Source: Myxococcus xanthus
GTDB taxonomy: Bacteria > Myxococcota > Myxococcia > Myxococcales > Myxococcaceae
DNA length: 64,000 bases
Direction: 5' to 3'
NCBI RefSeq assembly: GCF_900106535.1
Contig: NZ_FNOH01000003.1
Coordinates: 434,001-498,000 of the forward strand
Positions 7,525-64,000 of this stretch are shown here, one piece after another (positions within the stretch are counted from its first letter, which is position 1; each line of letters starts with the position of its first letter). The position numbers and the translations under genes were made by a program. Under the pieces are notes generated by a model. The model was not told the origin of the DNA, searched no databases, and was given only the letters and a program-made list of their open reading frames with translations.

Positions 7525-20950
<13,426 letters not shown>

Positions 20951-51919: not shown

Positions 51920-51975
51920 TGCGGATGGCCACACCTCACGCAGCCGAACACGTCGAAGTCGAACGTCCTCCTGCC
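51920..51975 (-). mobile_element. Remnant of a transposase (IS91-like zinc-finger region)
   Basis: Minus-strand reading gives RTFDFDVFGCVRCG, matching the second remnant at 54394-54566 (VDVFGCVRCGGRRRVLAYVK). Only the zinc-finger part survives; the flanks do not align. It marks the left border of the LysR-pirin segment. Confidence 0.5.
51929..51956. repeat. 28-nt direct repeat, copy 1
   Basis: Identical to 54527-54554, same orientation; begins CCACACCTCACGCAGCC and lies in the transposase zinc-finger codons. Confidence 0.85.
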
Positions 51976-53184: not shown

Positions 53185-54123
53185 ATGAGCACCACGACCC
53201 AAGTCAGCGTTCCCACTTCTCCTCGAACCACTTCCCGCCCCCGCACCCTGGAAAGTGTCCATGGTGGCGGCGAGCTGCACTGGGTGGGTGACGGCTTCCG
53301 CGTCCACACCCTCGTGCCGAGCGGCGGCCTGCGCCAGGAGCGGACCAGTCCGTTCCTGCTGCTCGACTACCATCCGCCCCATGACTACCCCGCGCTGGCG
53401 AAGGGCCAGCGGGGCGTCGGCTGGCATCCGCACCGTGGCTTCGAGACGGTGACGCTCGCGTTCGAGGGTCACGTCGCGCACCGCGACAACGCGGGCCACT
53501 CCGGCGTCATCAGTCCCGGGGACGTGCAGTGGATGACGGCGGCGTCCGGCATCCTCCACGAGGAGTACCACGAGCACGACTTCTCCCGGCGCGGGGGCAC
53601 GTTCCACATGCTCCAGCTCTGGGTGAACCTGCCTCGCCAGCACAAGATGTCCGCTCCGGGCTACCAGCCCATCACGAAGGAGCAGATTCCGGTGGTCCCC
53701 GTTCAAGGAGGCGGGGAGGCCACGGAGCACAGCCGGGTGCGCATCATCGCCGGGAGCTACGGTGACGCGAAGGGGCCCGCCAGGACCTTCACGCCCATCT
53801 CCATGCTCGACGTGAAGGTGCGCGCGGGCGAGGACTTCAACCTGTCGCTGCCCTCGAACCACAACGCCCTGGTGCTCGTCGCCAACGGCCGCGTGACGGT
53901 GGACGCGGAGAGCATCCGGAGCGGTGAACTCGCGGTGTTCGCCAACGACGGGGAGACCCTCTCCCTCCGGGCCGAAGAGGACACGCACTTCATCGTCCTC
54001 GCGGGCGAGCCCATCCACGAGCCCATCGCCCACACCGGGCCGTTCGTGATGAACAACCACCGGGAGATCATCCAGGCCATCCACGACTTCGAGTCGGGCG
54101 CCTTCGGTGGGATTCCCGAGTAA
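53185..54123 (+). CDS. Pirin family protein (cupin bicupin)
   Basis: A 312-residue cytosolic bicupin. The N-terminal cupin shows the metal set in GWHPHRGFETVTLAFEGHVA and GDVQWMTAASGILHEE, with the second cupin in the C-terminal half (VTVDAESIRSGELAVFAND). Pirins act as quercetin 2,3-dioxygenases or as redox-linked regulators of transcription and metabolism. It is probably controlled by the LysR protein just upstream. Confidence 0.92.
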   Translation: MSTTTQVSVPTSPRTTSRPRTLESVHGGGELHWVGDGFRVHTLVPSGGLRQERTSPFLLLDYHPPHDYPALAKGQRGVGWHPHRGFETVTLAFEGHVAHRDNAGHSGVISPGDVQWMTAASGILHEEYHEHDFSRRGGTFHMLQLWVNLPRQHKMSAPGYQPITKEQIPVVPVQGGGEATEHSRVRIIAGSYGDAKGPARTFTPISMLDVKVRAGEDFNLSLPSNHNALVLVANGRVTVDAESIRSGELAVFANDGETLSLRAEEDTHFIVLAGEPIHEPIAHTGPFVMNNHREIIQAIHDFESGAFGGIPE

Positions 54124-54393
54124 CGGGGCGCGCGGCAGCTGACGTCGCGCAAGGTGTGCTGGCGCCTCCGGGACACACCGTCCCGGGGGCGTCAACGTAT
54201 CGGCGGGATAGAGGCCCTGTTGAGGGTGAGGGCTGGAGCGGAGGGGCCGAGGAGGGCCGCTGACGGGGCCTCCCGAGCGATGCTCCCGGCCGGTGGACAG
54301 ACCGCTTGAACCCCCTTGGGGTACACGCCTGCCCAGGCCGCGCTCCCATCAGGTGCGTGGCAGGGGCCGCCGGCCCGGTGGCTGTCTTGCGCC

Positions 54394-54566
54394 TCAACAC
54401 CACGCGGCCTGGGGTGGCCCTCGTGCCGGGGCCAACCTCGCACAGGCCGTGGGCAAGCCCAGGTGCTCCAGAATCGCCCGCACCCCGGGGGCCCACTTCA
54501 CGTACGCCAAGACCCGCCGCCTGCCTCCACACCTCACGCAGCCGAACACGTCGACGTCCTCCTGCA
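54394..54566 (-). mobile_element. C-terminal remnant of an IS91-like transposase
   Basis: Minus-strand reading gives VDVFGCVRCGGRRRVLAYVK, then GVRAILEHLGLPTA and LAPARGPPQAAW. This pattern (CxxC zinc pair, RAILEHLGLP, APARGPP) is what IS91-type (Y2) transposases show at their C-terminus. The N-terminal and catalytic part is absent, cut at the folB junction near 54566. The rest of the gap to the pirin gene (54124-54393) shows no recognised gene. Confidence 0.65.
54527..54554. repeat. 28-nt direct repeat, copy 2
   Basis: Identical to 51929-51956, same orientation, 2598 nt apart, within the transposase remnant. Confidence 0.85.
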
Positions 54567-54838
54567 TCCGCCAGACCCTGGTGTTCGATCTGGAAATGGG
54601 CGTTGACAACCGCAAGCCCGCCGCCACCGACGACATCGCGCACACCCTCAACTACAAGGCCGTCTCCAAGCGACTGATCGAGTTCGTCGGCCAGTCTGAC
54701 TTCGGTCTGGTGGAGACCCTGGCCGAGCGTTGCGCGGCCATCGTGCTGGAGGAGTTCGGCGTGCAGTGGCTGCGCCTGAAGCTGTCCAAGCCCGGCGCGG
54801 TACGTGGCGCGCGCGGTGGGGGTGCTCATCGAACGTAG
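54566..54838 (+). pseudogene. folB: 3' fragment of dihydroneopterin aldolase gene (folB)
   Basis: Translation from 54566 gives QTLVFDLEMGVDNRKPAATD, then DIAHTLNYKAVSKRLIEFVG, ETLAERCAAIVLEEFGVQWL and RLKLSKPGAVRGARG, the FolB sequence from about residue 22 onward. FolB cleaves 7,8-dihydroneopterin in folate synthesis. The first ~20 residues are missing at the transposase junction, and the last ~8 codons are out of frame: the expected VGVLIERS is read only in another frame, consistent with a 2-nt loss. It is not a functional gene here. Style resembles Xanthomonadaceae FolB, by recall of the family. Confidence 0.75.
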
Positions 54839-54886
54839 CCGTCAAGACGGCTGACCGCACCCAAGCCAAGGAGGTATTACCTGCTC

Positions 54887-56176
54887 ATGAATGTGCAACA
54901 ACCCGTGACGATCCTGCCGTGGCTGAGCGCGCTTCAACGCCAGCTGGAGCCCTGGCCGATGGCCTGGCCGGTCACTGTGCTGGCGGCGCTGCTGGGGGTG
55001 GCCTGGCTGGCCAACTTCGTCACCAAGAAGATCCTGCTGCGCGGCCTGCACCATGTGATCGAGCGGCTGTCCGGCCCCGAGCACGACACCCGGCTGGCCT
55101 TGCGCGCGGTGGAGCGCCTGTCCAACGTGGTGCCGTCGGTGGTGATCGCCTCCGGGCTGTCGCTGGTGCCGGGTCTGCCGGCAGCGCTGGTGGTCCTGCT
55201 CCAGGGCGCCTGCCACGTGTGGACAGTGGCCACGCTCGCGCTGGCCGCCAGCCATGCCTTCGACGCTTCCAACGCGTTCTACGAACGCCGCCCGGATGCG
55301 CGGAACAAGCCGATCAAGGGCTACCTGCAGGTGGCCAAGATCATCGTCTTCGTACTGGCCGGCCTGTCCATCGTGGCCACCCTGGCCGGCGTGAAGCTGC
55401 TGCATGTGCTCACCGGTCTGGGCGCGGCCACGGCGGTGCTGATGCTGATCTTCCAGGACACGCTCCTGTCGCTGGTGGCCAGCGTGCAGATCAGCGGCGA
55501 TGGTCGCGTGCGCATCGGTGACTGGATCGAGATGCCCAGCCAGAACGCCGACGGTGATGTGATCGATATTGCCCTGCACACGGTGACGGTGCAGAACTGG
55601 GACAAGACCATCACCACCATCCCGACCAAGAAGTTGATCAGCGACTCGTTCAAGAACTGGCGCGGCATGCGGCAGAGCGGTGGCCGCCGGATCAAGCGCT
55701 CGATCTACCTGGATCAGCACAGCGTGCGCTTCCTGGATGATGCGTTGCAGCCACGCATCTACCAGTTCGCATTGCTCGATGATTACCTGGCCAGCAAGCG
55801 CGAGGAGCTGGGGCAGTGGAATGCCCAAGTGGCCGCCGTGCATCCCGAGCCCGTCAATGCCCGCCGGCTGACCAACCTGGGCACGTTCCGCGCCTATGTG
55901 GAGCGCTACCTGCGCACCCACCCGCGCATCAACCAGAACATGACCCTACTGGTGCGTCAGATGGCACCGACCGAGCACGGCCTGCCCCTGGAGATCTACT
56001 GTTTCACCGCCTCCACGGCCTGGGCCGAGTACGAGGCGACCCAGTCGGACATCTTCGACCACCTGCTGGCGATCCTGCCCGAGTTCGGTCTGCGCGTGTT
56101 CCAGCAGTCCTCCGATGCGATGTTCATGGGCCTGCAGCGCGCCCAGGACTGTGCCACGCCGGTGGTGCGCGGCTGA
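54887..56176 (+). CDS. MscS/YbdG-type mechanosensitive ion channel
   Basis: A 429-residue inner-membrane channel; AGGAGG is 12 nt before the ATG. Five hydrophobic segments (residues 25-45, 75-95, 100-120, 145-165, 172-200) lead to the pore helix GLGAATAVLMLIFQDTLLSL and the MscS beta domain (QISGDGRVRIGDWIEMPSQN, TVTVQNWDKTITTIPTKKL). The closest recall is YbdG/MscM with its C-terminal extension (residues 260-429). Such channels release solutes on osmotic downshock. It lies between a folB fragment and a PQQ dehydrogenase fragment, and the neighbours and codon choice (e.g. GATATT, CTGCTG runs) look gammaproteobacterial, so the gene is probably acquired. Confidence 0.9.
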   Translation: MNVQQPVTILPWLSALQRQLEPWPMAWPVTVLAALLGVAWLANFVTKKILLRGLHHVIERLSGPEHDTRLALRAVERLSNVVPSVVIASGLSLVPGLPAALVVLLQGACHVWTVATLALAASHAFDASNAFYERRPDARNKPIKGYLQVAKIIVFVLAGLSIVATLAGVKLLHVLTGLGAATAVLMLIFQDTLLSLVASVQISGDGRVRIGDWIEMPSQNADGDVIDIALHTVTVQNWDKTITTIPTKKLISDSFKNWRGMRQSGGRRIKRSIYLDQHSVRFLDDALQPRIYQFALLDDYLASKREELGQWNAQVAAVHPEPVNARRLTNLGTFRAYVERYLRTHPRINQNMTLLVRQMAPTEHGLPLEIYCFTASTAWAEYEATQSDIFDHLLAILPEFGLRVFQQSSDAMFMGLQRAQDCATPVVRG

Positions 56177-56210
56177 GAGGCCGGGCCTGCCGACCCGGTG
56201 TCATCCACGC

Positions 56211-56237
56211 AAAAGGCCGGGCAATGCCCGGCCTTTT
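56211..56237. terminator. Strong bidirectional Rho-independent terminator
   Basis: AAAAGGCCGGGC pairs exactly with GCCCGGCCTTTT around AAT, with A-run and T-run on either side. It is of the compact, gammaproteobacterial kind, unlike the longer GC hairpins elsewhere in the window. Confidence 0.92.
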
Positions 56238-56253
56238 ACGTGTGCGAAGGCGC

Positions 56254-56372
56254 TTACTGGCCCTTGGGCGTGAGCTTGAGCAGGCGGCCGGCCTTGCCGT
56301 CCTGGAGCAGCCAGATGGCGCCATCCGGGCCCTGTCCGACCTCGCGGATGCGCTCGCCCATGTCTTGGGCGG
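56254..56372 (-). pseudogene. 3' tail of a PQQ-dependent sugar (aldose/sorbosone) dehydrogenase gene
   Basis: The minus strand reads [20 protein letters not shown], then [18 protein letters not shown] and stop. GERIR-x-V-x-QGPDG-x-(I/L)-(W/Y)-L and GR(L/I)LR/K(L/I)-x-P are the C-terminal hallmark of soluble PQQ sugar dehydrogenases. Only about 38 residues remain; the rest is replaced by an IS66 transposase cut in the middle. The two sequences share a short stretch (CCGCCCAAGACATGGGCG) at the junction. Confidence 0.75.
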
Positions 56373-57502
56373 GTGACGCGGGGCCTGGGCTTCGAGCCAG
56401 ACGCGCAGCCGCGCGAGGATGGGGGCGCTGCGCAGTTGGCGCAGCTCGCGGTGGGCGGCCGTGCGCACCAGGTCCGCGTCTTTGGCCTGGGCCTCCACGC
56501 GGTAGAGTTCGAGGATGAAGTCCAGGGCCTCACGCGCCTCGGGGGCGGTGGCCAGCGCGTCGAAGAAGCGACGACGCACGTGGGCCCAGCAGCCGACGCG
56601 CACCCGGCCCTTTGGCAGCGTCACCGCGTTGTAGCCGGTGTACCCGTCCACCACGAGGGCGCCCGCGGTGCCGCCCAGCACTTCCCTGGGTGTCTTGCCG
56701 CCCCGGCCCATGCTGAAGCGGTAGCCGATGAGCCACTGCCCTTCCTCATTCTGGGTGAGGAAAGTCCAGAGGTAGCCCAGCTTCGTCTTCTTCACGTCCA
56801 GCACGTGCAAGGGCGTCTCGTCCGCCCACACCACGTCCGCCGAGGCAATGCACTGCAAGAGGTGCTGGGACAGTGGCAGCAGCACCGAGGCGGCCTGGTG
56901 GAAGAGGTCCGTTACGCGTGCTGCGACTCATGGGCACGCCGCTTCTCTCCACCCGCTGGGCCAGCCGGTGCAGCGGCATGGCGTCCGCGCACTTCGACGT
57001 GCGCCACGTGCGCGATGAAGCCAGGGCCGTACTCGCCCCTGTCCACCACGCGGGGCGGAGGCGGCGCGGTGACGACGCCCTTGCCGCACGTGCATGCCAG
57101 CACTTCCTGCACGTGCACCTGCCGCTCGAAGCGCGCGGGAATGTGCTCGAAGAGCACCGAGGCGCGGCCCTTGCCCAGCGGCCTCAAGTCCTCGCCGCCG
57201 CATGCGGGGCAGCAGCGCTCCTCGGCGGGCACCGCGTGGCGAATCTCCCGCGCCGGGGCCTGCTCGGCCTTCCGGGCCGCTCTCTCTCGGCGCTTCTTCT
57301 TCGCGGCCTCGGCCTGGGCCGCCGTGGTGTCCGCATCCCCTCGCAGCTCGGAGGCCACCGTCGGCAGCTTCTCCGTCCTGCGGCCGAAGACGTGGCGCTC
57401 CAGCGTCGCCATCTTTGCTTCCAGCGACGTCAGGCGCTCTTTGAGTTCCTCGGCCTCCTCGCGCCAGGGGCAGAAGTGGTCTTGCGGAAGCTCGCGGGGC
57501 AC
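56373..57502 (-). pseudogene. tnpC: IS66 transposase tnpC, frameshifted and 3'-truncated
   Basis: The N-terminal frame (MPRELPQDHFCPWREEAEEL) holds the coiled region and the zinc finger (CCPACGGEDLRPLGKG, CTCGKG). Near 57000 the reading moves to another frame (ADAMPLHRLAQRVERSGVPM) and near 56925 to a third (TDLFHQAASVLLPLSQHLLQ, then DVVWADETPLHVLDVKKTKL). The DDE part follows, with WAHVRRRFFDALA, to [17 protein letters not shown], after which about 140 residues of the family's usual C-terminus are missing. Two frameshifts and one truncation, so not functional. Confidence 0.85.
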
Positions 57503-57548
57503 TCCGCCACAACACGTCGCCGCCGCACTGCGTCCCGGGCCTCTCGTC

Positions 57549-57914
57549 TCAGGTGCCCGTGCGCCCGGGAGGCGTCCAGGCGGGCTGGCGCCTCACCTGG
57601 GCCACGTCGATGCCGTCCAGCAGCATCGCCAACTGCGTGGCGTCCAGGTGCACCACCTGGGCACCCGCGTCCACCGGCGGCAGCCAGAATCTCCCCGTCT
57701 CCAGCCGCTTGTACAGCAGCACGAAGCCGCCTCGGCTCCACGTCAGCACCTTGACTCTGTCGCCCCTGCGCGAGACGAAGGCGAAGAGGTGCCCCGAGTA
57801 GACGTCCTCGCCCCACTCGGCGCGCACCAGCGCCATGAGGCCGTCTATCGACTTGCGCATGTCCACCGGCGTTGTGGCCAGCACCACGCGCACCGACGCG
57901 GGCAGCGAAAACAC
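57549..57914 (-). CDS. tnpB: IS66 accessory protein TnpB (Orf2)
   Basis: A 121-residue protein from the GTG giving VFSLPASVRVVLATTPVDMR, preceded by GTGAGGCG. The family signature (PVDMRKSIDGLMALVR, VYSGHLFAFVSRRGDRVKVL, GGFVLLYKRLETGRFWLP) is intact, so this gene is complete. It is needed with TnpA and TnpC for IS66 transposition, but tnpC is broken. Confidence 0.92.
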   Translation of the reverse strand: MFSLPASVRVVLATTPVDMRKSIDGLMALVRAEWGEDVYSGHLFAFVSRRGDRVKVLTWSRGGFVLLYKRLETGRFWLPPVDAGAQVVHLDATQLAMLLDGIDVAQVRRQPAWTPPGRTGT

Positions 57915-57918
57915 CGCC

Positions 57919-58233
57919 TCACCGCCCCAGTGCCGCGACGAGGCGGGCCACGTACTCCACGTTGGTGCCGGAGGCGAATCGCAGGCACGCACCGCTGGCC
58001 AGCACCACCTCCAGCAACGCCGGCCCCGGCTGCGCCATGCCAGCCACCTCCACCGGCAGCAGGCGCACCGTCTCAGCTTTCTCAGGCTGCTGGCGTCGTC
58101 GTCGGTACACCCACGACTGCAGCGTGCTCAACCTCACGCCTCGCTGCTGGGAGAACGCCTTCTGCGTCAGTCCGCTCCCCTCGAAGGCTTCGGCGACCCG
58201 AAACCACTCCTGCTTCTCCACCGGCGTCGACAT
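57919..58233 (-). CDS. tnpA: IS66 TnpA (Orf1) helix-turn-helix protein
   Basis: A 104-residue protein from the ATG giving MSTPVEKQEWFRVAEAFEGS; an upstream TTG (58269) would add 12 residues. The helix-turn-helix stretch (GLTQKAFSQQRGVRLSTLQS) and the end VEYVARLVAALG are those of IS66 Orf1. Stop and tnpB start are 4 nt apart. Its N-terminal part is repeated in the second remnant at 60909-61069. Confidence 0.88.
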   Translation of the reverse strand: MSTPVEKQEWFRVAEAFEGSGLTQKAFSQQRGVRLSTLQSWVYRRRRQQPEKAETVRLLPVEVAGMAQPGPALLEVVLASGACLRFASGTNVEYVARLVAALGR

Positions 58234-58302
58234 GCTCGCCAGGGTCCACGGCGCCGGCCTCTCACTCAACGCCTCTCAGCACGTCATTGGCCGGACGGAT
58301 AC

Positions 58303-59081
58303 CGCGCCCGCGGCGAGTGCATTGCGGATGCCCTCGGGCGTTATCGCGCGGACGGCCACCTTGCGCTTCGCCTTGTGCGCCTCGTCGATGATGATGCGCA
58401 GCTCGTCGACGGTGAGCGTGGGCATGGCCCAGTCCGCGTAGACCTTCAGCAGGTCCGCGCCCTGCCCCAATTACTCACGTGCGGCGCGGCGGGCCTCCTC
58501 CCCACCGCTGACGAACTGCGCTCCCGTGGACAGGTCCTTCACGTCGGGAGAGGTGCCAAACGGGTGGTAGGCGCCCACCGCCGCGATGCCACGGGTGGCC
58601 ACCAGCATGCGAGGCCCCTCCACGAGCCCCTGGCGGATGGCGTCGCGCAGGGCCACGTCGGCGAAGCCGCTGCCCTCGTTCTCCACGTCGCGCACGGTGG
58701 TGAAGCCGGCGCGCAGCGTGGCCCGCGCATTCGCCGCGCCCTCCAGCGCGCGGGTGGCCTGGGACTTGGTGAGCAGGGCCAGCTCGTAGCCGTTCGGCGT
58801 CTCCGATTCGCGCGCCATCTGGTGCGTGTGGCAGTCGATGAGCTCCGGCAGCAACGTGGACGTCCCCAGGTCCACCACCTCCGTACCCTCGGGGATTTGC
58901 AGCCCGGGGCCCACCTTCACGATGCGGTCACCCTCGATGAGGATGACCGACTGGGCCACGTACTTGCCGCTCTTCACGTCGAGCATCCGCGCGGCGCGCA
59001 CGGCGACGCGGCGGGCTGGGCCGTGGCGACAGCTCCCAGGATGAGGGTGAGCAGGGACAACACAGGGGCAAGCCGCTTCAC
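58303..59081 (-). pseudogene. Exported imidazolonepropionase-like amidohydrolase, triply disrupted
   Basis: The signal peptide MKRLAPVLSLLTLILGAVAT (GTG start 59081, GGAGG upstream) is in a different frame from the body, which begins VAVRAARMLDVKSGKYVAQS. The body has the metal motif LIDCHTHQM and GFTTVRDVE of the amidohydrolase superfamily. At 58471-58473 an in-frame TAA replaces a probable CAA (GEEARRAARE-stop-LGQGADLLKVYADW). The frame then continues to EGIRNALAAGA and ends at the IS66 terminus. So there is one frameshift, one nonsense codon and one IS truncation. Confidence 0.8.
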
Positions 59082-60374: not shown

Positions 60375-60908
60375 TCAGTCGTGCGTGGCCGGCCGGGGCT
60401 CGTCGGTGCGAGGCGGGTGCGGGCCCGACTCGGCATCCGGCTTCTTCCCCAGCCTCGCTCCCACCCGCGTCTTCATCCGGTCCGCGATGACGTAGAAGGC
60501 GGGCACCACCAGCAGGCTGAGCACGGTGGACACGGACAGGCCGCCGAGCACGGCGATGGACATGGGCGCGCGCGTCTCCGAGCCCGCGCCAGCGCCAGCG
60601 CCGCCGGCACCGCCGCCATCATCGTCGCGGTGGACGTCATCAGGATGGGCCGCAGCCGCACCGGGCCCGCGCGCAGCATGGCCTGGAACGCATCCGCCCC
60701 GCGCTCCCGCTCCTGCAGCGCGTAGTCCACCAGGATGCTGGAGTTCTTCTTCACGATGCCCATCAGCAGCAGCAGGCCAATCATGCTGAAGATGTTCAGC
60801 GTACTGCCCGTGGCCAGCAGCGCGAAGGCCGCGCCCGCCACCGACAGCGGCAGAATGGTGAGCACCGTGACGGGGTGCAGGAACGAGTTGAACTGCGCCC
60901 CCAGCACC
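60375..60908 (-). pseudogene. 3' fragment of an RND (HAE1/AcrB-type) efflux pump gene, frameshifted
   Basis: The body frame reads VLGAQFNSFLHPVTVLTILP, then IGLLLLMGIVKKNSSILVDY and RLRPILMTSTATMMAAVPAA, the transmembrane region of RND pumps. Near 60590 the frame changes (missing about 2 nt) to GAGSETRAPMSIAVLGGLSV and STVLSLLVVPAFYVIADRMK, ending ...PRPATHD. The 5' part of the gene is absent, replaced at 60909 by the IS66 remnant, which is read in the same frame as the fragment. A dead pump. Confidence 0.85.
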
Positions 60909-61069
60909 ATCCGCACGCCTCGCTGCGCGGAGAAATCCTTCTGCGTCAGTCCGCTCGCCTCGAAGGCCTCAGCAACCCGCCACCATTCCGGCTTCGACAT
61001 GCACGCCAGGGTCCACGGCGCCGACTCCTCACTCAACGTCTCTCAGCACGTCCTTGGCCGGACGGATAC
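60909..61069 (-). mobile_element. Second IS66 end with tnpA N-terminus (remnant)
   Basis: Minus-strand reading MSEESAPWTLACMSKPEWWR, then VAEAFEASGLTQKDFSAQRG matches tnpA at 58233. Its outer end (minus GTATCCGTCCGGCCAA) is at 61069, as 58302 is for the larger copy; both point the same way. The sequence ends abruptly in the RND gene. It is diverged from the larger copy, so it is a separate, older or independent insertion. Confidence 0.8.
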
Positions 61070-61243: not shown

Positions 61244-61260
61244 GAGGAGGCCGTGTGCCC

Positions 61261-62898
61261 ATGAGAGTCGTCGTCGACCTCACCCGCTGCCAGGGGTATG
61301 CGCAGTGCGCCTTCCTTGCGCCGAGCGTGTTCAGGATGCAGAGCGGGGATGCGCTGCTGTACGACTCCAACCCCGACGACGCCCTTCGTGAGCAGATCAA
61401 GCGAGCCGCTGCGGCGTGCCCCGTCCAGGCCATCCACATTGGCGGGATGGGCACCCTGGCGGCGATGCGGAAAGAGCCTGCACAGCGACGGAAGCCCAGG
61501 GGGCCCGTGCGTCTCACCGACGCGGAAGCGGCGTTCAAGCGCGGTGGCCGCATCGTTATCGTCGGCGCATCCCTGGCCGGGTTGACTGCCGCCCTCATGC
61601 TCCGCACCCAAGGCTTTGCTGGGTCGTTGACCCTCATCGGGGATGAGGCCTGCGACCCGTACGACCGGCCGCCGCTCTCCAAGCAGGTCCTGACAGGTTG
61701 GGTGAAGGCAGACCACACCCTATTGCCTTACAGCGACGAGCTCGATGCGGACTGGCACCTGGGAGTCCGTGCCATGGGACTGGACCTAGCCGGCAGGCAG
61801 GTCCTCCTTGCTGACGGGAACAGGGTCCAGTTCGACCGGTTGCTGATTGCGACGGGGGCGCGTGCCCGGCCGTGGCCCAACGACGCGGAGGCGTCGCTGG
61901 AGGGCGTAGAGGTGGTGCGCACCCGCGACGATGCGGCCCAGTTGCAGCGCCGTCTGGCCGCCAGACCCGGCCGGGTTCTGGTCATCGGCGGCGGGTTCAC
62001 CGGCTCGGAGGTCGCCTCCGCGTGCCGCGAGCTGGGTCTGCCGGTGACCGTCACGGAGCGGGGGGCCACTCCACTGGTGGGGGCGCTCGGCGGAGTTGTC
62101 GGGGCGGTCGCAGCCGCCTTGCAACGCGACCATGGCGTCGACCTGCGCTGCGGCGTCACCGTCACGCGGCTGGAGGGGGATGCAAACGGGAGGCTGCGGC
62201 GGGCCCACTTCTCCGACGGCTCGACACTGAACGTCGACGTGGCCGTGGTCGCGCTAGGGGCGATCCGCAACGTGGAGTGGCTGCGCGACTCGGGGCTGGC
62301 GGTGACTCGATGGGGAGTGGCCTGTGATGCGGCCTGCCACGCGTTCGACATCAACGGCCTGGTGACCAGGAACATCTTCGTCGCCGGGGACGTGGCCCGC
62401 GTCCCTCACCCGATCTACGACTACCAGTTCCTGTCCCTCGAGCACTGGGGCAACGCGGTCACCCAGGCCAAGATTGCGGCCCACAACATGCTCAGCCCGG
62501 AAGCGGACCGCTGGCCACACCTGACCATCCCCACCTTCTGGTCCACGCAATTCGGCGTCAACATCAAATCGGTGGGTGTGCCGACCTTCTCGGACGCGCT
62601 CGTCATCACCCAGGGCTCACTCGCCGAGCGCCGATTCGTCGCCGTCTATGGCTACAAGGGGCGTGTCACCGCCGCGGTCGCTTTCGACCAGCCCAAATGG
62701 CTGGAGTTCTACCAGGGCTTGATCGATGCAGCCGCGCCGTTCCCGCCCGCCTTCCGCACCGTCCATCAGCCCGCCGAGATGCGGCCCGTCCCTCCCGAAT
62801 TTCCGAAACGGGCCGTGTCCGAGCACGAGGCCACCGTCATGGTCACCGGCCGTGAACCCTACGAGCGGCGGGTCCGGTGGGTGTACCGGCACCTTTGA
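61261..62898 (+). CDS. Ferredoxin-ferredoxin reductase fusion (3Fe-4S type Fd + FAD/NAD reductase)
   Basis: A 545-residue protein from the ATG giving MRVVVDLTRCQGYAQCAFLA; GTG 61255 is a possible earlier start (GAGGAGG lies upstream of both). Residues 1-65 are a P450-type ferredoxin: Cys pattern RCQGYAQC then AACPVQAI (C-x5-C...CP). A 30-residue linker follows, then a reductase: FAD GxGxxG-like IVIVGASLAGLTAALML, NAD site VLVIGGGFTGSEVASACREL, and FAD motif NIFVAGDVAR. So it carries electrons from NAD(P)H via FAD and the Fe-S cluster to a partner. The P450 gene 58 nt downstream is the obvious partner. Usual P450 systems encode these as separate proteins; here they are one chain. Confidence 0.9.
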   Translation: MRVVVDLTRCQGYAQCAFLAPSVFRMQSGDALLYDSNPDDALREQIKRAAAACPVQAIHIGGMGTLAAMRKEPAQRRKPRGPVRLTDAEAAFKRGGRIVIVGASLAGLTAALMLRTQGFAGSLTLIGDEACDPYDRPPLSKQVLTGWVKADHTLLPYSDELDADWHLGVRAMGLDLAGRQVLLADGNRVQFDRLLIATGARARPWPNDAEASLEGVEVVRTRDDAAQLQRRLAARPGRVLVIGGGFTGSEVASACRELGLPVTVTERGATPLVGALGGVVGAVAAALQRDHGVDLRCGVTVTRLEGDANGRLRRAHFSDGSTLNVDVAVVALGAIRNVEWLRDSGLAVTRWGVACDAACHAFDINGLVTRNIFVAGDVARVPHPIYDYQFLSLEHWGNAVTQAKIAAHNMLSPEADRWPHLTIPTFWSTQFGVNIKSVGVPTFSDALVITQGSLAERRFVAVYGYKGRVTAAVAFDQPKWLEFYQGLIDAAAPFPPAFRTVHQPAEMRPVPPEFPKRAVSEHEATVMVTGREPYERRVRWVYRHL

Positions 62899-62956
62899 GC
62901 CGAATGTCGGCAGCCGCGTCACCCCACCCCTCCAACGGACTCAAGGAGACCGCTTC

Positions 62957-64000
62957 ATGGCACAGGCCAGCATCTTCGAGCAGATCCTCGACCCGGCCAA
63001 CCGGGCCAACCCCTACCCGCTCTACGCCGAGTTGCGGAAGACTCCCGTGGCGCGCGAGGCCGACGGCACGTACATCGTCAGCACCTACGATGAGATTGTC
63101 GCGTTGCTCCACGACCCACGGGTCAGCTCCGACATACGCAACCTCGTCCGGCAGGCCGGTGCCACGCCCTCCCCCCAGGAGGGCCCTCCAGGGCTGCCAG
63201 AGCCCTTCATCCGGCGCGACCCTCCCGACCACGACCGGCTCCGGAAGCTGGCGATGAGGCCCTTCGGGCCGCCGCACACCCCCGGACGCATTGATGCCCT
63301 TCGTCCCTGGCTGGTCGAGACCACGACGGGCCTGCTTGACGCGCTCGCGGGCAAGAACCAAGTCGACATCGTCGGCGACGTGGCCTACCCATTCCCTGTG
63401 ACTGTCATCTGCAAGCTGCTGGGAGTCCCTCGCGAGGACGAAGCGCGCTTTCACGAGTTGGCCGACGCGGGCGTCGAGACCCTTGACCCCACCACAGGGA
63501 CGATCGAGCAGCGAAAGGCCAAGCGCGACCGGACGAAAGCGGAGCTGGGGCAGTACCTCGCTGCGCTCGCCGATGCCCACCTGCGCCAGCCGGGCGGCGA
63601 CCTGCTCTCCGGGTTCCTGACGGATAACGGCCCCGACGGGCGGATGTCGCGGGAAGAGGTGTTGAGCACCGCCGCGTTGCTGCTCGTCGCTGGCCATGAG
63701 ACCACCGTCAACCTCATCGCCAATGGCATGCTCACCCTGCTGCGCCACCCCGGCGTGTTCGAGCGGCTGCGCCGCGAGCCCGAGCTGAGCATCCCGCTGG
63801 TCGAGGAGCTGCTGCGCTATGAACCACCGGTGCAGTTCCTGCCTGACCGAGTCACTCTGGCCGACATCGACATTGCCGGCACCACCATTCCCCAGGGCTC
63901 GCCGCTCGTGCTGATGCTCGCTGCGGGCAGCCGCGACCCAGAGCGCTTCGACGACCCCGACCGCTTCATGCCCGACCGGCCCAACAACTCGCACCTGGGC
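62957..64000 (+). CDS. Cytochrome P450, 3'-truncated by window
   Basis: Open from ATG 62957 (AAGGAG 8 nt before) to the window end in frame, 348 residues seen. Features: N-terminal PYPLYAELRKTPVAREADGT, helix C RRDPPDHDRLRKLAMRPFGP, helix I LLVAGHETTVNLIANG (AGxET) near residue 248, ExxR EELLRYEPP near 284, PDRVTLADIDIAGTTIPQGS. The heme Cys loop lies beyond the window. Bacterial class I P450 with no membrane anchor; it hydroxylates small molecules using electrons from ferredoxin, here probably the upstream fusion. Substrate unknown. Confidence 0.92.
   Translation, partial: MAQASIFEQILDPANRANPYPLYAELRKTPVAREADGTYIVSTYDEIVALLHDPRVSSDIRNLVRQAGATPSPQEGPPGLPEPFIRRDPPDHDRLRKLAMRPFGPPHTPGRIDALRPWLVETTTGLLDALAGKNQVDIVGDVAYPFPVTVICKLLGVPREDEARFHELADAGVETLDPTTGTIEQRKAKRDRTKAELGQYLAALADAHLRQPGGDLLSGFLTDNGPDGRMSREEVLSTAALLLVAGHETTVNLIANGMLTLLRHPGVFERLRREPELSIPLVEELLRYEPPVQFLPDRVTLADIDIAGTTIPQGSPLVLMLAAGSRDPERFDDPDRFMPDRPNNSHLG

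Follow-up and report, generated by a model that had tools for sequence, protein, structure and literature searches.

The window analysed here is a stretch of 64,000 nucleotides from Myxococcus xanthus (GCF_900106535.1, contig NZ_FNOH01000003.1, positions 434,001 to 498,000), the genome of which is referred to as G000. Between two mobile-element remnants it contains an insert of about 1.8 kb, made up of the 3´ part of folB, an MscS-type channel gene, a hairpin and the opposed tail of a PQQ/GSDH-type sugar dehydrogenase gene. The features are listed below; G006 is a sister genome, and L017 is the locus of Stenotrophomonas ginsengisoli discussed further down.

53185-54123: 312-aa gene, leftmost neighbour, pirin-like by eye
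54195-54565, minus strand: 371-bp 3´ end of an IS91/ISCR-like element (Y2 transposase), with C-terminal transposase codons and the terminal region; 54195 is the outer, constant end of a dispersed repeat
54565/54566: left junction between the IS91-like remnant and folB at codon ~24, from comparison with donor-type loci (L017, L018, L019, L022, L057); identical in G006
54566-54838, plus strand: folB (dihydroneopterin aldolase) pseudogene, 5´ truncated and frameshifted near its 3´ end (Pfam FolB, comparison with L017)
54887-56176, plus strand: intact MscS-family channel gene, 429 aa, of Xanthomonadaceae origin (Pfam, composition, tree)
56211-56237: terminator-like hairpin between two convergent genes, inherited from the donor (stem core and loop shared with S. 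ginsengisoli)
56254-56364, minus strand: 3´ tail of a PQQ/GSDH-type sugar dehydrogenase gene, ~36 residues kept (Pfam GSDH)
56362-56364: right junction between the dehydrogenase tail and the inside of an IS66 element, donor and IS sequences compared by eye
56363-58302, minus strand: IS66 element without the transposase C-terminus (Pfam, comparison with G006)

The same three genes are present in the same order and orientation in S. ginsengisoli (NZ_LDJM01000010.1), as the preliminary description of this locus had predicted for a single gammaproteobacterial genome. Positions 3685-5557 of L017 are collinear with the whole block (54566-56362), in two alignments of 1685 and 113 columns that keep order and orientation and have a DNA identity of 83% (54566-56237) and 88% (56253-56362). 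Judged by these alignments, the collinearity is beyond chance. In other loci of Stenotrophomonas, Xanthomonas and Luteimonas, folB and mscS are kept together, and the dehydrogenase tail is located about 2.6 to 3.3 kb past the channel gene in L019, L021-L024, L026 and L027. A sample of 395 genomes was taken from the larger set for the family of S. ginsengisoli and scored at two candidate places per genome; 385 of them match some part of the block. The best identity was 83%, reached by S. ginsengisoli itself (G021) and by G364. Together with the channel tree described below, this makes the assignment to the Xanthomonadaceae, already proposed in the preliminary description, solid. Xanthomonadaceae is the usual name of this family; the same genera are labelled Lysobacteraceae in the taxonomy of the tree.

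A near-identical donor was found neither in the 395 donor-family genomes nor among the best 80 of 589 channel relatives nor in plasmids. Since no donor closer than 83% was found, the proposal of a very recent capture, for which a near-identical donor had been predicted, is unsupported (best match 83% for DNA, 84% for protein).

The channel is the only intact gene of the insert. Its reading frame (429 aa, compared to 426 in S. ginsengisoli) contains the MS_channel beta and C-terminal domains of MscS-type proteins at full length (MS_channel_2nd, E 5.5e-16; MS_channel_3rd, E 1.1e-4) and is full length and unbroken in both G000 and G006. The protein is 84% identical to the homologue of S. ginsengisoli and is its sister in a quick tree search with 89 proteins (SH-aLRT 99), within a Stenotrophomonas/Xanthomonas clade. 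Distant homologues in other genomes of the order and family of the host (68% in G017; 73% over 331 bp in G433) are far less similar than the one from S. ginsengisoli.

Codon and composition style, which had been taken as support for a foreign and recent origin, does not carry that argument. GC and GC3 of the channel gene are 0.660 and 0.897, those of the S. ginsengisoli gene 0.646 and 0.876, and GC3 of the host genes is 0.898-0.947 in five of seven (0.849 and 0.868 in two genes of unsure origin). The composition is close to both donor and host, is a weak argument for the origin and was rejected as proof of it. With GC so similar in the genes of donor and host, composition alone would hardly reveal the block. 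Relaxed selection on the captured channel was likewise not retained, since there was no clear difference in pairwise dN/dS (0.239 for the captured channel against S. ginsengisoli, 0.237 for S. ginsengisoli against G364) or in lineage-specific changes (16 versus 11 amino acid and 50 versus 43 nucleotide changes). If expressed, the channel would act as a pressure valve of the MscS family. Matches in the PDB (10 sequences) are YnaI or YnaI chimeras and cover the C-terminal part only, and the predicted structure is a low-confidence model (pLDDT 66); YbdG-like, the earlier label, is a candidate assignment within the MscS family. No sigma-70-like promoter was called in a scan of 54100-56500, a test of little power in this host.

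Both end genes are truncated. The folB part matches the Pfam FolB profile (E 4.4e-22) at positions 22-104 of 113, and since this match starts at position 22, the N-terminus is missing. The donor-type genes of S. ginsengisoli are whole, whereas in the window about 23 residues are missing from the N-terminus of folB, and its reading frame is shifted near the end, ahead of the stop codon. The minus-strand dehydrogenase tail, of which the donor-type locus has the complete gene, comprises positions 302-332 of the 332 of Pfam GSDH (E 8.8e-8), with a DNA identity of 88% to L017 and 90% to L019.

The hairpin at 56211-56237, first described as a terminator unlike others in this stretch, is like that of the donor: in addition to gene order, orientation and 83-88% DNA identity, the locus of S. 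ginsengisoli shares a hairpin of identical stem core and loop, placed between the corresponding two genes. In G364, such a hairpin is located just past the matching block, and at four other loci (L019, L021, L022, L108) the pattern was not found. The exact pattern occurs once in G000 and once in G006, at no place outside the insert in six host-genus genomes and in one of seven donor-family genomes searched. With these numbers, its frequency says little, and a frequent Stenotrophomonas motif was rejected since the exact pattern was present in just one of the seven; to judge from the sequences, its position and the loop identity in S. ginsengisoli say more. The fold predicted for 56205-56245 has -28.3 kcal/mol. 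A simple terminator scan of 54100-56500 called no terminator, and this hairpin was missed as well because its T run is short.

Both junctions were read by eye on the donor and IS sequences. On the left (54565|54566) one base is ambiguous, since it is common to the IS91-like and the folB side. On the right (56362-56364) the dehydrogenase sequence ends inside the IS66 sequence with two bases shared. Thus, both end genes are indeed cut where they meet mobile remnants, as first noticed. Overlaps of one and two bases would fit an illegitimate joining. The IS66 element on the right is well recognisable (DDE_Tnp_IS66, E 2.8e-43; TnpB_IS66, E 2e-35). In G006 the right junction is located about 10 bases earlier than in G000, at the end of another IS66 copy, and because the two genomes have different IS66 copies and joining points, the original right junction is not certain. 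On the left, the constant end of the IS91-like remnant adjoins different sequences in G000 and G006, though the cargo is the same. In G006 and in G001, a third close genome, the flank with the gene at 53185-54123 runs into a 68-bp piece of the IS91-like repeat, at most 3 bases from the position of the constant end in G000. The different left neighbours would also result if about 4.4 kb had been deleted between IS91 copies.

The sister genome G006 (9.3 Mb, one contig) contains window positions 54195-56354 at 99.4% identity, with an identical left junction. This second carrier decides about an alternative that had been kept open initially, namely that the block is an assembly chimera or contaminating Xanthomonad DNA. 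The sharp change of affinity at both block ends would agree with such an artefact, but the same block and left junction are present in the single contig of G006, which is 2.1-7.0% divergent from G000 around most of the block, and the 395 donor-family genomes included no identical genome as a possible contaminant. The chimera is thereby refuted and hardly conceivable any more; since the sister genome carries the same piece, we are dealing with a real gene transfer and not with a sequencing mistake.

The insert itself differs between G000 and G006 at only two of 1789 bp, at 56132 (silent, by codon position) and at 56182 (past the stop codon), whereas eight neighbouring alignments of the two genomes are 93.0-97.9% identical (2.1-7.0% divergence). 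Assuming 2.05% divergence, just under the lowest of the eight neighbours, a Poisson model expects about 37 differences and gives a probability of 8e-14 for at most two. The tract of low divergence starts within the IS91 remnant, with nine differences in 54201-54337, one at 54522 and the two in the insert. From this pattern we infer that the segment was exchanged between the lineages of G000 and G006 after these had separated, either through recombination or because the segment itself moved. The part of the history that appears recent thus looks like an exchange between two host lineages.

The block has a narrow distribution in the family of the host. In 96 host-family genomes, with three candidate places scored per genome, a best E of 0 was obtained in G000 and G006 only, and in the next best genomes (E 3e-169) the match was in the IS91 part; an earlier search of 21 genomes agrees that the block is limited to these two. 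In G001, with a flank 97.7% identical to that of the window, an IS91 remnant is situated close to the same amidohydrolase remnant, and the 20 kb compared there contained neither the insert nor IS66. In the window, this amidohydrolase remnant (58276-59001) has an in-frame stop and is cut by the end of the IS66 element adjoining the insert.

We consider it likely that a random fragment of a Xanthomonad chromosome was illegitimately joined to mobile-element remnants and later became common to close strains. Its source is a Stenotrophomonas-like bacterium of the Xanthomonadaceae, and the fragment may have been taken up as free DNA, perhaps from prey. In a myxobacterial ancestor it would have been joined on the left to the 3´ remnant of an IS91/ISCR-like element, with almost no shared end sequence, while the right side would have ended up against an IS66 element, inside a region prone to rearrangement. 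A later and recent segment exchange, presumably by recombination, would then have made the piece common to two close host lineages. The end genes folB and dehydrogenase are broken and probably have no selected function. The sequences show the origin of the block, its contiguity, its junctions, its presence in two genomes and the low divergence of the segment, whereas the uptake as free DNA, the mechanism of joining, the vehicle, the exchange by recombination and the lack of a selected function are what we infer.

The remnant on the left belongs to a repeat family that is frequent in the family of the host. Its minus-strand reading weakly matches the C-terminus of the NCBIfam model ISCR_clade_Ia (positions 455-508 of 509, E 6e-4). 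The 371-bp repeat was found at 105 places at E<=1e-10 (28 in G000, 38 in G006 and 39 in G001), and 60 of the 96 host-family genomes match a query containing the IS91-like part, with nearly all listed places falling in it. In 149 donor-family genomes the repeat was not found at E<=1e-6 with the same query, which does match host genomes. Thus, the join was probably made in a myxobacterium. Matches to PF04986 (Y2_Tnp) over the cut-off were present at three places in G001 and four in G006, and none was found in G000, G010, G007 and G008. The repeat is present in six of the seven PF04986 loci (at only 71% in L141; absent from L144), and in L145 and L146 it is located just downstream of the transposase reading.

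According to a script criterion set after the loci had been seen, 21 of 29 loci inspected among the 105 places have the constant outer end; three are cut by contig ends, and five are without it (one of these, L150, starts at position 2 of the repeat). In 17 of the 29, the repeat continues into the transposase at its inner end; the other 12 were flagged as broken off there, at repeat positions between 241 and 371, and the flag is probably wrong for one of them (L159). One-ended rolling-circle transposition produces one constant and one variable end. It might be possible that the foreign DNA was carried along by the IS91/ISCR-like element, with rolling-circle replication starting at the constant end (54195) and proceeding past the truncated transposase into the adjoining Xanthomonad DNA. 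The mostly constant end with many different other ends in broken copies would agree with this, as would the location of the cargo opposite the constant end and the different neighbours of this end in G000 and G006 with the same cargo. Near 541 kb in G006 (L146, 2238-2867), a 633-bp duplicate of a LysR region (97% identical) is located between two repeat copies, one of which faces it with the constant end and the other with the inner side; this is a lead for cargo carried by the element, but not proof. A precedent is IS801, for which one study (PMC3189936) describes one-ended events that yield right-end fragments (229, 360 and 679 nt) and, at low frequency, move upstream DNA.

The same study, however, ascribes most IS801 fragments in genomes to rearrangement (PMC3189936), and evidence for transduction by IS91-like elements is called circumstantial elsewhere (PMC4778049). 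The element was not found in the 149 donor-family genomes, so some other route must have linked the foreign DNA to it beforehand, and the left neighbours are equally well explained by the 4.4-kb deletion considered above. Compared with IS91, IS801 and ISCR elements (PMC3189936), the repeat is similar in the Y2_Tnp match of linked copies, the weak C-terminal ISCR match and the mostly constant outer end with variable truncation typical of right-end fragments. It differs in that G000 has no PF04986 match and that, by eye, the loci inspected have no common tetranucleotide of the GAAC/CAAG type beside the constant end, unlike IS91 and IS801. Taken together, we regard movement of the Xanthomonad DNA by the element as unlikely to be the primary event; one-ended transposition could also have come after an illegitimate joining.

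Another route would be delivery of the Xanthomonad fragment by an integrative element, a plasmid or a phage that has since decayed. The near identity of the segment in two lineages would be compatible with such a vehicle, and some 4 kb beyond the right end of the block in G006 (L098, ~10500-10750) the sequence resembles by eye the 3´ end of a tRNA or tmRNA beside the C-terminus of a tyrosine integrase, possibly an old attachment site. ARAGORN, however, detected no gene for a tRNA or tmRNA in the loci surrounding the block, and 72,556 plasmid records contained no near DNA match beyond a 213-bp stretch at 79%. In addition, the end genes are fragments of housekeeping type, which are not the usual cargo. 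We consider delivery by such a vehicle quite improbable.

The frequency of the ISCR-like family in the family of the host permits a more far-reaching speculation, which we hold to be rather doubtful. The family might act as a capture system, in which the origin end picks up adjoining DNA, pieces from prey included, and moves it within and between strains. ISCR elements are thought to move resistance genes likewise in other bacteria.

That a myxobacterium captures a chromosome fragment from another bacterial group is a known kind of event, which is unusually well resolved here. A review states that genomic signatures of the capture of prey DNA are elusive in myxobacteria and that sequence-based evidence for such transfer is missing (PMC8538405). 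Like the acquisitions of non-myxobacterial genes covered in that review (PMC8538405), the present block is foreign accessory DNA, in this case confined to two close genomes among those searched; unlike them, it has resolved junctions and donor synteny. It is a clean case of capture, with the donor family, the donor gene order, both junctions and two carriers known. This suggests that further captured pieces should be sought at junctions with IS91-like ends. No published account of the block was found in the titles and abstract openings of the papers retrieved on IS91 in Myxococcus or on Stenotrophomonas, which is not proof of its absence in print.

The surroundings of the insert contain further joined or exchanged pieces. 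The frame at 60473-61036 consists of the start of an IS66-associated protein fused to part of a transporter of AcrB type (positions 875-984 of the 1021 in Pfam ACR_tran), and 60911-61069 matches IS66 ends in G006; it is thus another gene fragment joined to an IS66 remnant. The stretch 61181-64364 is also common to G006 and is 98.9% identical, compared to 93.0-97.9% in eight other alignments, so the insert is not the sole stretch of low divergence here. It includes a ferredoxin and FAD reductase gene (61255-62898), followed by a cytochrome P450 by eye. A possible foreign origin of 61255-64000 was considered; the best 15 rows from the plasmid collection are actinobacterial at 63-67%. In addition, G006 has about 9.6 kb (L097, 2370-11955) that is absent from the window between 51885 and 52034, with frames that resemble by eye an oxidoreductase of the xanthine-dehydrogenase type and a glutathione transferase, and with two IS91-like pieces; at the corresponding place the window retains a 32-bp trace of the IS91-like repeat (51929-51960).
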